A DNA stretch of 36,355 bases. It comes from Flavobacteriales bacterium. GTDB lineage: Bacteria; Bacteroidota; Bacteroidia; Flavobacteriales; UBA1820. The notes below the pieces were generated by a model. The model did no database searches. It saw only the letters and a list, made by a program, of their open reading frames with translations, and was not told the origin of the DNA. This document shows, in pieces, positions 13,258-17,584 of the stretch. The stretch spans positions 1 to 36,355 of the forward strand of contig JAFYKQ010000053.1 of the NCBI GenBank assembly GCA_017537565.1. Direction: 5' to 3'. Position 1 is the stretch's first letter; every line of letters begins with the position of its first letter. The translations under genes and the position numbers were made by a program.

Positions 13258-14598
13258 TTATTTTCTTTTGGCGATTGCTTTTACAAATTCGTCCAGAGTA
13301 ACTTCTTTCTGTTTGTAAGTTATCTGCTCTTTGAATATTTCAAGCATCTTCTCGCGGATAATCATACTCTGCATACGAGAAACTTCTTCCTTGTTTTTAA
13401 GGATACGTTCCACGATAGGAGCTAGGTCTTCGTCGCTCATCTCCATCTGGCCGTACTGTGCCATCTGCATACGGATAAGAGATTTGGCACGTTCTGCTAT
13501 GTCGTTATATTCTATACGAACGTTGTTATCTGCCAAAATCTGTGTCTCTATAAGCTGATAACGCAATCCTTTCTCGCTCTGTTCTATTTCACGTGCAGCT
13601 TCCTCTTCGCTCATTGGTTTTTCGGCAGTAGCCATAAGCCAACGTTTCAAGAAGTCTAGTGGTAGGTCAAACTTGGTGTTTTCTATAAGGAAGTCCACCG
13701 TGTCGTTCATAACCTGTGAATCTGTCTCGGTAGCAAATGCGCTTTCGGCTTCACCTACTATCTTACCGCGGAATTCTTCTTCGGTAGTTACAACGCCTTC
13801 GCCATATATCTTGTCAAACAATTCCTGGTCTAGAGCGTGAGGTTCAACGTTTGATATTTTCTCGATAGTAAGGTGTAGTTCATCTGTAAAGCTTTCGCAT
13901 TCGTCGGCACTCTTACCTATGAACTGTGAAAGACGTGTAGTAGATTTGAAATCTTTTGGCTGTGCTACAACTACATCACCTACTTTTTTACCTACAAAGT
14001 TTTTGGCGTTTTTGATGTCGGCTACAACTACTATGCCCTGTTTGTAAGCACCTGGCTGGTAAAGTTCATCGCCTTCGCCTTTGGCTTCTATTTTTACTAC
14101 AACGTCAGAAATTTTTTCAACTTTTTCTACGTCACTTATCTTACCAAAACGTTTTGTAAGGCTAGATATGTGGTCGTTGATGTAATCGTCAGAAACCTTG
14201 ATAGTGTATTTTGTAACTTTTTTGGCAGCAGCCAAATCTATTTTAACCTCTGGAATAATTCCTATCTCAAAATCAAACGAAAGGTCTGTGGCGTTTGCCC
14301 AGTCTATCTCCTGCTGTGCTACAGGTAGTGGCTGACCAAAGATAGCTAGGTTTTCCTTACGAATGTAGTTGTCAAGTTCTGTCTGTACCAGTTTGTTTAC
14401 TTCCTCTACAGTGGCAGCTACACCATACTGTTTTTTAATCATGCCTGCTGGTACCATACCCTTGCGGAAACCAGGTACAGTGGCATTTTTACGCATATTT
14501 TCCAGTGCTTTTTCAACGCTGGGACGATAGTCTGCTTCTGCTATCTGAACGGTAATGATGGCGTTCAGTGCGTCTGTGTTTGTTTTTGAAATATTCAT
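13258..14598 (-). CDS. tig: Trigger factor, ribosome-associated chaperone
   Basis: Binds the ribosome exit tunnel and shields nascent chains. It is 446 aa. The ribosome-binding signature GFRKG is at 43-47 (VPGFRKGMVP), inside an N-terminal tail-like domain (1-115). The central region (about 150-250) does not show the usual FKBP active-site pattern and may not be an active prolyl isomerase; this degeneracy seems usual in the phylum. The C-terminal part (about 250-440) is helical and charged, as in the chaperone arms. It lies directly upstream of clpP. It is downstream of a phage portal gene with no terminator between them. Confidence 0.93.
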   Translation of the reverse strand: MNISKTNTDALNAIITVQIAEADYRPSVEKALENMRKNATVPGFRKGMVPAGMIKKQYGVAATVEEVNKLVQTELDNYIRKENLAIFGQPLPVAQQEIDWANATDLSFDFEIGIIPEVKIDLAAAKKVTKYTIKVSDDYINDHISSLTKRFGKISDVEKVEKISDVVVKIEAKGEGDELYQPGAYKQGIVVVADIKNAKNFVGKKVGDVVVAQPKDFKSTTRLSQFIGKSADECESFTDELHLTIEKISNVEPHALDQELFDKIYGEGVVTTEEEFRGKIVGEAESAFATETDSQVMNDTVDFLIENTKFDLPLDFLKRWLMATAEKPMSEEEAAREIEQSEKGLRYQLIETQILADNNVRIEYNDIAERAKSLIRMQMAQYGQMEMSDEDLAPIVERILKNKEEVSRMQSMIIREKMLEIFKEQITYKQKEVTLDEFVKAIAKRK

Positions 14599-14648: not shown

Positions 14649-14656
14649 CAAAGATA
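14649..14656 (-). promoter_or_regulatory. -7 element for tig
   Basis: TATCTTTG on the minus strand, 51 nt before the tig ATG. The nearest upstream TTTG is 24 nt away, longer than usual, so only the -7 box is called. Confidence 0.5.
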
Positions 14657-14686: not shown

Positions 14687-16117
14687 TTACATAGTGAAAT
14701 TAAGGCTGCCCTGCTGGATATCATTTATCTGTTTTTCTGATATGATGGTGTCATATTCTTCTTCTGGGTCGGTAGATAGACCAGATAGGCGTACAGCACT
14801 ACGCTGTGAGATAAGAGCCTTCCCACCAGATGCTATATTGAGAGCCTGGATATTGGCTGTGCGGTCATCTATCATATATGGTTGTATCTCTTGGCGTATT
14901 TCCAGTGAATCTATGTGTGGGGCTATGGCAGTATTGAGAACTTTCATATATGAGCGAATGATATTCATACGGCGTTCCAGATATTCGTTCCACATCTCAC
15001 ATTTGTTCTGTACTTTAAGGTGAGCGTCTAGGAACATCATTTTAAGTGCTATACCCGACGTATTGGCCAGTCCCTTAACACTATCAAACGAAATATCTGG
15101 TGTCTGTGTCGTGCTGTATATCATACCTAGTAGGGTGTTTATTTCCAGGCGAACGCTTTCGGGAGCTTGTTGCCAGGATAGATATTGTGCCGTGCTGTTT
15201 GCCTCGCCTTCTATGATGGCACCTGTTTCTCCCTTGCGGGCAAAACCGCGTATCTCTCCCGTTACAAAAATCTTGGGTGAGGAATGGTAGTCGTTTGTGT
15301 CGGCAAAGTTTGAAAGTAATTTTTCCAGTCGTTCTATAAGACACTGTACGTCTGCCCATTCGCTTTGTCGTTGGCTGGCATATATGACGGGAATTTTACC
15401 TATGCGGTTTTCTATATTGGCTGTCATTTCCCATTTGCCGCCTTTGGCTCTTGAAAAACGCAATATGCATCTGTCTGTGTAGGTCTCGTAATGTTCTGTG
15501 TCGTCATCGGCACTACTCCACATACGTGAGAAGGCTATCATATCTCCATACCCGTCAAATAGTGGATATAGTTTATCTCCTTGCGAAGGGCTGAATATAC
15601 ATACGCGTAGTTTGTGGGCTGGCTGTACACTTTTTACAAAGGAATATCTATCATCGCTGCCTATCTTATCCCAGAATCCGCGTTCGGGGACGGGATACCA
15701 TAGTTCGGCAACTTCGGTCTCGCTCATAAGGGTACGAGCCAGACGACGGTTAAGGCTACCCGTCTTGTTATCGGCTTGTGTTCGGCGTATGGCCTCCCAA
15801 GCACAGCCTGCTTTTTCGTCGTTGCGTGTGCAGGATATTTTTACTTCATTGCCAAAAAGAAAGGCTACGGCTCGTTCCACTATGATGCGTTGTAGGGGTA
15901 GGGCTATGCGTGCCACAGGTTCAAATCTCTCTATGTTCCCGTCCTGTCCTTTTACGGCCTTGTCTGGACGTAGAGAACTGTCGTTTATCTTGTGTCCCTG
16001 TGGGTAATACTCTTTTTCCAGAGTGTGTATATGTGGCTGTGGAGTAGAACGTCTGGATAGTTCTTCTATCATTTCATCGGCCGATTCTATGGCCAATATC
16101 TCATCTATGTTTTTCAT
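14687..16117 (-). CDS. Phage portal protein, SPP1 gp6-like, solitary
   Basis: Portal proteins form the dodecameric DNA channel at a tailed-phage vertex. This intact 476-aa frame matches the SPP1 gp6 portal family as I recall it: the wing-region FADTNDYHSSPKIFVTGEI (about 271-289), then GFARKGETGAII, YLSWQQAPESVRLEINTLL (312-330), MIYSTTQTPDISF (332-344) and the helical SGIALKMMFLDAHLKVQNK (354-372). The N terminus is arginine-rich with a hydrophobic patch, and the C terminus is acidic and Gln-rich. No terminase, protease, capsid or tail gene is present. The neighbours are tig (88 nt downstream, no terminator between) and tolC. It has its own consensus host promoter. It is either a lone prophage relic or a domesticated gene. 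Confidence 0.88.
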   Translation of the reverse strand: MKNIDEILAIESADEMIEELSRRSTPQPHIHTLEKEYYPQGHKINDSSLRPDKAVKGQDGNIERFEPVARIALPLQRIIVERAVAFLFGNEVKISCTRNDEKAGCAWEAIRRTQADNKTGSLNRRLARTLMSETEVAELWYPVPERGFWDKIGSDDRYSFVKSVQPAHKLRVCIFSPSQGDKLYPLFDGYGDMIAFSRMWSSADDDTEHYETYTDRCILRFSRAKGGKWEMTANIENRIGKIPVIYASQRQSEWADVQCLIERLEKLLSNFADTNDYHSSPKIFVTGEIRGFARKGETGAIIEGEANSTAQYLSWQQAPESVRLEINTLLGMIYSTTQTPDISFDSVKGLANTSGIALKMMFLDAHLKVQNKCEMWNEYLERRMNIIRSYMKVLNTAIAPHIDSLEIRQEIQPYMIDDRTANIQALNIASGGKALISQRSAVRLSGLSTDPEEEYDTIISEKQINDIQQGSLNFTM

Positions 16118-16146
16118 TGTTTTAAGGTTTATATGTTATTTATATT

Positions 16147-16178
16147 CAAATATAATCAAAAAGGAAATAAAAAGCAAA
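16147..16178 (-). promoter_or_regulatory. Promoter of the solitary portal gene
   Basis: On the minus strand: TTTG (plus 16175-16178), 20-nt spacer, TATATTTG (plus 16147-16154). A full housekeeping-type match. It implies a leader of about 24 nt before the portal ATG. Confidence 0.75.
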
Positions 16179-16200: not shown

Positions 16201-16244
16201 ATACCCCAAAAAGGCGAGCCGCAGGCTCGCCTTTTTGGGGGTAT
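16201..16244 (-). terminator. Terminator of the acrA-acrB-tolC operon
   Basis: Very long near-perfect hairpin: a 20-nt left arm (16201-16220), GCA loop and right arm 16224-16244 with one extra G. The U run lies within the stem. It ends 20 nt before the tolC stop side and insulates the portal gene from efflux transcription. Confidence 0.92.
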
Positions 16245-16264: not shown

Positions 16265-17584
16265 TTATTCTAGATAAAGCTGGATATCACCGCTTATCTG
16301 ACGCAGAGAGATTTCACATAGTTTGGTGTTGTATTTGGCAGAAAGCAGACGCTCTTCGGCGTCCAGTAGGCTCAGCTGAGCTTCACGCATTTCTATACCA
16401 GGTAGGTCTCCCAGCAGATAACGCTCTTTGGCTATTTCATAGTTTTCGCGGGCGGCGATGAGGTTCTGCTCTTCCAGAGAGATGACTTCTATGTTATTGC
16501 GATATGCCTGATAGAAATTTGCAAGGTCGGCCATAAGACCTTGACGGGTCTTTTCTACCGTAAGACGAGCGTTGTCTACCTCTATACGGGCATTAGTCTG
16601 CTCACGGCGGCGATTTCCGTCAAATATATTAAAGCCCAATTTAAGACCAAAGTCTGGGCTGAGCGTAGAGCGTTGTCTAGTGCTGCCACTGCCATAACGA
16701 TTGTAGTTATAGCCATAGCCCGCCGTAAGTCTCAAATAAGGATAGTTGCGGGAACGCACACTGCGTAGGTCCAGTTCAGATACTCGTATCTGGTTTTCGG
16801 CCATAAGCAGTTGGGCATTTGTTTTAAGTGTACCATCGTGTAGTTTTTCCCATATGAGGTCTTTGTTTACCTGTATGGAGGTGTCACGAGCTGTTATACG
16901 TTCGTTGATGTCTTGCAGTGCAATGAGTTCATTGATACGTATGCGTGACGCCATAACGGTTTCTTGTTGGGACATATAACGCGAACTATCGGCATTGAAA
17001 TCCACGCGGGCTTGCAGTAGGTCAAGACGAGAAAAACTACCTATCTTGAAACGTTCTTCGGTTATACGTAAACGTTCGCGGGATAGCTTTACTGCATAGT
17101 CGTAATTTTCCAATCGCAGTGTCTGCTGTACCAGATTATAGTATTCGGCTACTATCGATGCGATAAAATCCTCTATCGTTATGCGACTCTTGATATGTCC
17201 CATAGATTTGAGTTCTTGCAGGCGTTTATATGAGGTACGTAATTTCATACCCTCAAATATCGTCCAGTTAAGTGACACACCGGCATTGGCACTCTGGTCA
17301 AATACCCCGTATGAAGACGTCTTGACATCGTCTGTGGTAGTGCTATGAGTATCTGTTATTTTCCCGTTTACCCCAGCCGAAAGGTCCAGTGTAGGTAGAA
17401 GACCGGCAGCGGCCATCGTAGCATTATTGTCGCTTATCTTTTCCTCTCCGCGTACTATCTGTATGTCATAGTTCTGCTGTAATCCCAGTTCCAGACATTC
17501 ACGCAATGAGACTTCTTTCTGTGCATATATCATTCCCGATGTGAGGAGTATATATGCTATGGATAGTGTGATACGTTTTATCAT
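16265..17584 (-). CDS. tolC: TolC-family outer membrane efflux protein
   Basis: Outer-membrane channel of a tripartite RND pump. It is 439 aa with an N-terminal signal peptide (MIKRITLSIAYILL...MIYAQ). Two outer-membrane-efflux repeats are visible: LRECLELGLQQNYDIQ near the mature start, long amphipathic helices with FKIGSFSRLDLLQARVDF, and in the second half FDGNRRREQTNARIEVDNARLTV and RYLLGDLPGIEMREAQLSLLDAE. It starts 4 nt after acrB. The name tolC is by family; Bacteroidota papers often use other names. Confidence 0.93.
   Translation of the reverse strand: MIKRITLSIAYILLTSGMIYAQKEVSLRECLELGLQQNYDIQIVRGEEKISDNNATMAAAGLLPTLDLSAGVNGKITDTHSTTTDDVKTSSYGVFDQSANAGVSLNWTIFEGMKLRTSYKRLQELKSMGHIKSRITIEDFIASIVAEYYNLVQQTLRLENYDYAVKLSRERLRITEERFKIGSFSRLDLLQARVDFNADSSRYMSQQETVMASRIRINELIALQDINERITARDTSIQVNKDLIWEKLHDGTLKTNAQLLMAENQIRVSELDLRSVRSRNYPYLRLTAGYGYNYNRYGSGSTRQRSTLSPDFGLKLGFNIFDGNRRREQTNARIEVDNARLTVEKTRQGLMADLANFYQAYRNNIEVISLEEQNLIAARENYEIAKERYLLGDLPGIEMREAQLSLLDAEERLLSAKYNTKLCEISLRQISGDIQLYLE

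Follow-up and report, generated by a model that had tools for sequence, protein, structure and literature searches.

What keeps an intact phage portal gene among housekeeping genes, with no other phage gene beside it? Such a gene lies in the window analysed here, the whole 36,355-nucleotide stretch, which is contig C49 in a genome of 1.71 Mb and 97% completeness. The original prediction offered two answers: either the rest of the phage had recently been lost or the portal had kept a function, for example as a channel or as a decoy against phage assembly. It also placed the organism in the Bacteroidales, which is wrong, as its relatives are Flavobacteriales MAGs that put it in that order, within a genus that includes Candidatus Merdimorpha stercoravium.

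Comparisons within the genus were carried out on four genomes, all drafts: the host's own (G000) and three others, apparently from a sample called Sandtown (G001), from water deer colon (G002) and from Ca. M. stercoravium (G003). The genomes were covered by gene searches and by reading of selected stretches, with neighbouring genes outside the window named by eye. Contig ends cut the genes HT1, MuF and TMP in G000, MuF in G002 and Dit in G001.

Results

The portal gene and its surroundings

The portal gene (14687..16117, minus strand) is an intact open reading frame encoding a 476-aa protein. Its product matches the Pfam SPP1_portal family (E = 1.6e-44) and PHROG 64 portal (3e-63), and the top PDB matches of its AlphaFold2 model (pLDDT 76.9, pTM 0.71) are the portals of SaPI1, 80alpha and SPP1 (gp6), so that reading frame, profiles and predicted fold all confirm an intact portal of the SPP1 gp6 type. 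It is flanked by tolC (16265-17584) and tig (13258-14598), with clpP, clpX and an RND efflux system further out, and no other phage structural gene was found in the window. The description of the portal as solitary holds to that extent, but its partner genes are spread over six further sites beyond the window, and the idea that the remaining phage genes were lost recently must be dropped. The portal gene is probably an old resident, because its GC content (0.453) and GC3 resemble those of the adjacent genes, which are only a little closer to host genes in codon usage than it is.

A strong terminator had been proposed to insulate the gene on its upstream side, and a long GC-rich inverted repeat with A/T tracts (16201..16244) does close the tolC unit there and insulate that of the portal. 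The repeat was found by direct reading and is absent from the output of a simple promoter-terminator scan; G002 carries a different hairpin at the matching position. Continuation of the portal unit into tig, also proposed, is not established, because tig may have its own promoter: a possible -7 element, TATCTTTG, was read from the sequence at 14649..14656 (minus strand), with a poorly spaced -33 match that is off-consensus at 24 nt from it.

One portal copy was found in each of the four genus genomes, with 84%, 69-70% and 66% identity to the window copy in the three relatives, none of which has phage genes beside it. In all three genomes that are readable on that side the portal is followed by tig, and its upstream neighbour varies, being tolC in G000 and G002, a small lipoprotein-like ORF and then galK/galT in G001, and an ogt-like gene in G003. 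In the original test, whether the portal recurs alone between the same neighbours, the constant side is that of tig. Among 75 other genomes of the order a single portal match was obtained (35%), with an MCP match ~6 kb away, as in a prophage. Outside the genus, the portal relatives are accompanied by a minor capsid gene at no more than 6 kb in 99 of 104 loci, and in 54 of 73 the MCP is no more than 12 kb away. Orthologues always embedded in full prophages would have spoken for a simple relic; the relatives examined outside the genus do lie in phage clusters, but the genus copies do not, and no portal of the genus is part of a block of phage genes.

Particle genes at seven loci

Profiles built from contiguous phage relatives were searched against the four genus genomes, with prophage-bearing genomes as controls. 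About 17 phage genes, together ~17 kb, were located in seven loci (A to G) that lie on separate contigs or far apart and are flanked by housekeeping genes. They include the gene set for a complete tailed particle, namely TerS, TerL, portal, MCP, MuF, connectors, MTP, TMP, Dit and tail tip. The phage-built MCP profile matched once in each genome (E = 1e-112 to 1e-116), the tail-tip protein (Tal) was present in all four (E = 1e-186 to 1e-202), and profile matches to MTP, the MuF motif, the C-terminal part of TMP and Dit were likewise obtained in 4 of 4. A TerL profile made from the portal's closest phages gave no match in the genus; the genus has a TerL of a different type (Terminase_3), which came to light when the MCP locus was read. 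No integrase or replication genes were found in the stretches read around the loci.

Locus A, between psd and lysA (C30 and C99 of G000), has the order o83-o88-TerS-TerL-170aa-MCP-HT1-HT2-HT3-MTP, that of a phage head operon from the middle of which the portal and MuF are missing. All ten of its genes have orthologues in the four genomes, with MCP 82-94% identical, and the Walker A (GGAGGGKS), Walker B (FIDEC) and conserved acidic nuclease residues of TerL are intact in every one. HT1, HT2 and HT3 are taken as three connector genes, and the 170-aa protein, assigned by position or eye, as a putative scaffold. Divergent from locus A is an 87-aa gene (L166:1830-2093(-), L170:57-320(+)) with matches to phage-repressor PHROGs and a dN/dS of 0.086; its repressor-like product is a candidate regulator of the system.

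The portal in the window constitutes locus B (C49 of G000). Locus C (C114) encodes a MuF-type minor head protein of 838-1211 aa (L171:1-2556(-), L174:4815-7331(+), L176:427-4062(-)), of which the part C-terminal to the motif is long and fast-evolving; the protein weakly matches phage head proteins that bear an ADP-ribosyltransferase and may be carried inside the particle. Locus D (C78) encodes a shortened tape measure of 482-498 aa, compared with ~1360-1450 aa in related phages, and the tail should therefore be short. Loci E (C84) and F (C121) encode the tail-tip and distal tail proteins.

Locus G (C8) is probably a lysis module, whose three genes encode a coiled-coil protein of 150 aa with weak similarity to Rz, a protein with a DUF5675 match (E = 7.8e-29) and a lipoprotein-like protein of 147 aa; the 150-aa and 147-aa products are assigned by position or eye. 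The corresponding locus in G003 is non-homologous, in that the promoter element described below precedes an unrelated protein of ~200 aa (L319:9115-9750(-)), peptidase-like by eye and perhaps a substitute for the lysis enzyme. This protein, the 147-aa lysis protein and the 87-aa regulator have no match to a Pfam family. In three genomes the lysis locus has a conserved TetR-family gene in divergent orientation beside it (L314:4666-5280(-), L315:7215-7829(+), L316:798-1427(-)), which may act on the locus as a host regulator or be a mere neighbour.

A common element in the promoter spacer

As originally predicted, the portal gene has a consensus Bacteroidota-type promoter, TTTG-N20-TATATTTG (16147..16178, minus strand), in which TTTG at 16178-16175 and TATATTTG at 16154-16147 are 20 nt apart; it was recognised by sequence reading and comparison across loci. 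The spacer of such promoters is usually free, and at the portal it is filled by a conserved regulatory element found by cross-locus comparison, TTTATTTCCTTTTTGATTATATTTGA (16146..16171, minus strand), with the core TATTTCCTTTTTGATTAT at 16152-16169. Upstream of the portal 26 of 26 positions are kept in G000, G002 and G001 and 24 of 26 in G003. The element is common to the portal, MuF, TMP, Dit, Tal and lysis loci, and the upstream DNA of these unlinked loci is unrelated apart from TTTATTTCYTTTTTGATTATATTTGA.

The exact 18-bp core, TATTTCYTTTTTGAYTAT, occurs at 21 sites in the four genus genomes, every one of them at a phage-derived locus (19 promoter-oriented, 2 inverted), and at 1 site in 115 other Flavobacteriales genomes; a reversed-pattern control gave 0 sites in the genus and 1 elsewhere. 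Loci B to G carry the element and locus A a partial one (TTTTTTGATTAT core), with the qualification that locus E lacks it in G000 and G002 and has it in G001 and G003. Searching with the element revealed two new loci, the distal tail gene (Dit) and the three-gene lysis locus, and Dit was later confirmed by profile, including in G000 and G002, where its element has 2 mismatches. The inverted exact copies lie just before MCP (G000:C30:5305-5322(-)) and where the MuF gene begins (G001:C92:4794-4811(-)), positions that suggest a second operator.

Selection and descent

Values of dN/dS were calculated by NG86 between G000 and G002, leaving out clpP because of a frame error. The portal gave 0.076, far below 1, with MCP and MTP at 0.051 each, TerS at 0.065, TMP at 0.091, TerL at 0.107, MuF at 0.149, Tal at 0.164 and the lysis genes at 0.07-0.21. 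All particle genes are under purifying selection. Their ratios range over 0.05-0.21 and those of host genes over 0.03-0.09, at comparable dS (~0.7-2.5 and 0.5-1.6, respectively); the ratios are rough because several dS values are near saturation.

In trees of up to 140 sequences, the genus copies of portal, MCP, MTP, TerL and Tal each form a single clade apart from phages (support 0.999-1.0), with the subtrees within the genus weakly resolved for MCP and TerL. Presence in all four genomes and single clades, together with purifying selection, indicate vertical inheritance. The phage nearest to the portal and MCP in the trees is the IMG/VR contig L061, which has portal, MuF and MCP within ~7 kb. 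No close MCP outside the genus was found among 396 genomes of the order, and a single-sequence MCP search of viral contigs found no relative, which reflects a limit of the pattern method. Two contigs of G001, C96 (L173) and C114, belong to related siphophage and carry a long tape measure, a capsid-like gene, a second MTP and a second Dit; being genuine siphophage contigs, they indicate that related phages still enter the genus.

Discussion

The part of the original prediction that spoke of a retained function is strongly supported by the presence of the portal throughout the genus, its low dN/dS and its conserved regulatory element. The explanation we favour, at a probability of about 80%, is a domesticated, dispersed and co-regulated siphovirus that acts as a gene transfer agent (GTA)-like system, of which particle formation, packaging of host DNA and delivery are the parts that we infer. 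A siphovirus would have been domesticated in the ancestor of the genus and split into seven loci. A regulator binding TATTTCYTTTTTGAYTAT in the promoter spacer would turn on loci B to G jointly, in some cells; the procapsid would assemble around the portal and be filled with host DNA by the terminase, connectors and a short tail would join the filled head, and the lysis genes would release particles that bring host DNA to relatives. The genome holds virus-derived genes for a complete tailed particle and, in the stretches read, no self-contained phage genome able to excise or replicate. The gene set, its genus-wide retention, apparent joint control and dispersal appear, at the level of sequence, to make up the genetic side of the definition of a GTA.

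Siphovirus descent and scattered parts, with the faster evolution of MuF and the 147-aa lysis protein, might also be expected of old prophage remnants that were broken up by rearrangements and are decaying without a joint function. Decay, however, predicts frameshifts and random loss, whereas the genes are intact in all four genomes where fully readable, their dN/dS and the identity of MCP are those of constrained genes, and the 18-bp element is preserved at unlinked loci. The reading as a prophage relic, largely refuted by dN/dS and the element, was rejected on these grounds as quite improbable. Another reading is a particle without host DNA, built from capsid or tail parts, for instance a tailocin-like one that kills or a capsid that delivers protein; the short tape measure and fast-evolving tail-tip protein would fit a tail for killing or delivery. 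Yet both terminase subunits (TerL with its motifs intact), MCP, the portal and the connectors are among the most conserved components, and since a tailocin would need none of them this reading is disfavoured and considered unlikely.

That the portal is alone within the window fits a lone retained protein with a new cellular role, but at least 10 partner genes are retained, several of their loci with the same promoter element. Neither the single-protein channel nor the decoy against phage assembly is supported, given that genes for terminase, capsid, connectors, tail and lysis are also kept, most with the element of the portal; the lone-channel reading was rejected for this reason, and a lone role of either kind is very improbable. 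Equally hard to credit is a satellite, or a phage that is fragmented yet infectious and packages its scattered genes itself. It could draw on the contigs of a genuine related phage in G001 (L173), but the loci lie among housekeeping genes on different contigs, their copies are passed down with the host, the stretches read contain no integrase or replication gene, and ~17 kb dispersed over seven places should not be packageable as one unit.

A GTA-like system of this kind can be compared with RcGTA of Rhodobacter capsulatus (Rhodogtaviriformidae), likewise a domesticated tailed phage that is vertically inherited and has scattered genes. RcGTA also has a short tail, and its lysis genes are under common control. 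Its structural and regulatory genes occupy five loci of ~20 kb in total (PMC9662315). The present host belongs to a different phylum, and the closest sequences, which are those of Bacteroidota phages, point to a probably independent origin; furthermore, each of portal, MuF, tape measure, Dit and tail tip stands apart from the others here, at loci with a common promoter element. PBSX, a defective prophage of Bacillus, is also a domesticated phage particle that packages host DNA, but it is one contiguous prophage, in contrast to the seven loci found here. Brachyspira VSH-1 (Brachygtaviriformidae) is similar in belonging to a gut bacterium and in having a GTA genome that is likely dispersed across multiple loci (PMC9662315), and differs in its spirochaete host; none of the comparisons made relates the two systems.

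Bacteroidota siphophages and prophages, among them Porphyromonas phage005b, the Riemerella phages RAP44 and PJN03, Flavobacterium phage 11b and the IMG/VR contig L061, are the source families of these genes, with identities of 44-50% for the portal, 48% for TerL (to phage 11b) and 50% for MCP (to L061). In these phages the genes are contiguous (terS-terL-portal-MuF-MCP-tail-lysis) and lie beside integrase or replication genes, whereas here they are scattered. Few lineages, most of them Alphaproteobacteria, are known to have GTAs. The known ones are listed in a 2026 gut study, in which only lateral transduction is prominent for Bacteroidota (PMC12946183). The open-access papers searched, a set without preprints that leaves priority unproven, yielded no GTA of the Bacteroidota. 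We consider it likely that this is the first GTA of the Bacteroidota, independently domesticated, and the most fragmented known, with seven unlinked loci under one promoter-spacer element.

If this is true, animal-gut Bacteroidota with small genomes (~1.7 Mb) have evolved host-controlled DNA exchange anew, and the promoter-spacer element defines a GTA regulon whose missing members can be found from sequence alone. A general method is thereby suggested, that of looking for stray single phage genes under one common promoter element. Prophage finders are blind to such unlinked machines, and solitary portal, capsid and tail genes that have been called prophage debris may belong to a machine that works although its parts are unlinked.
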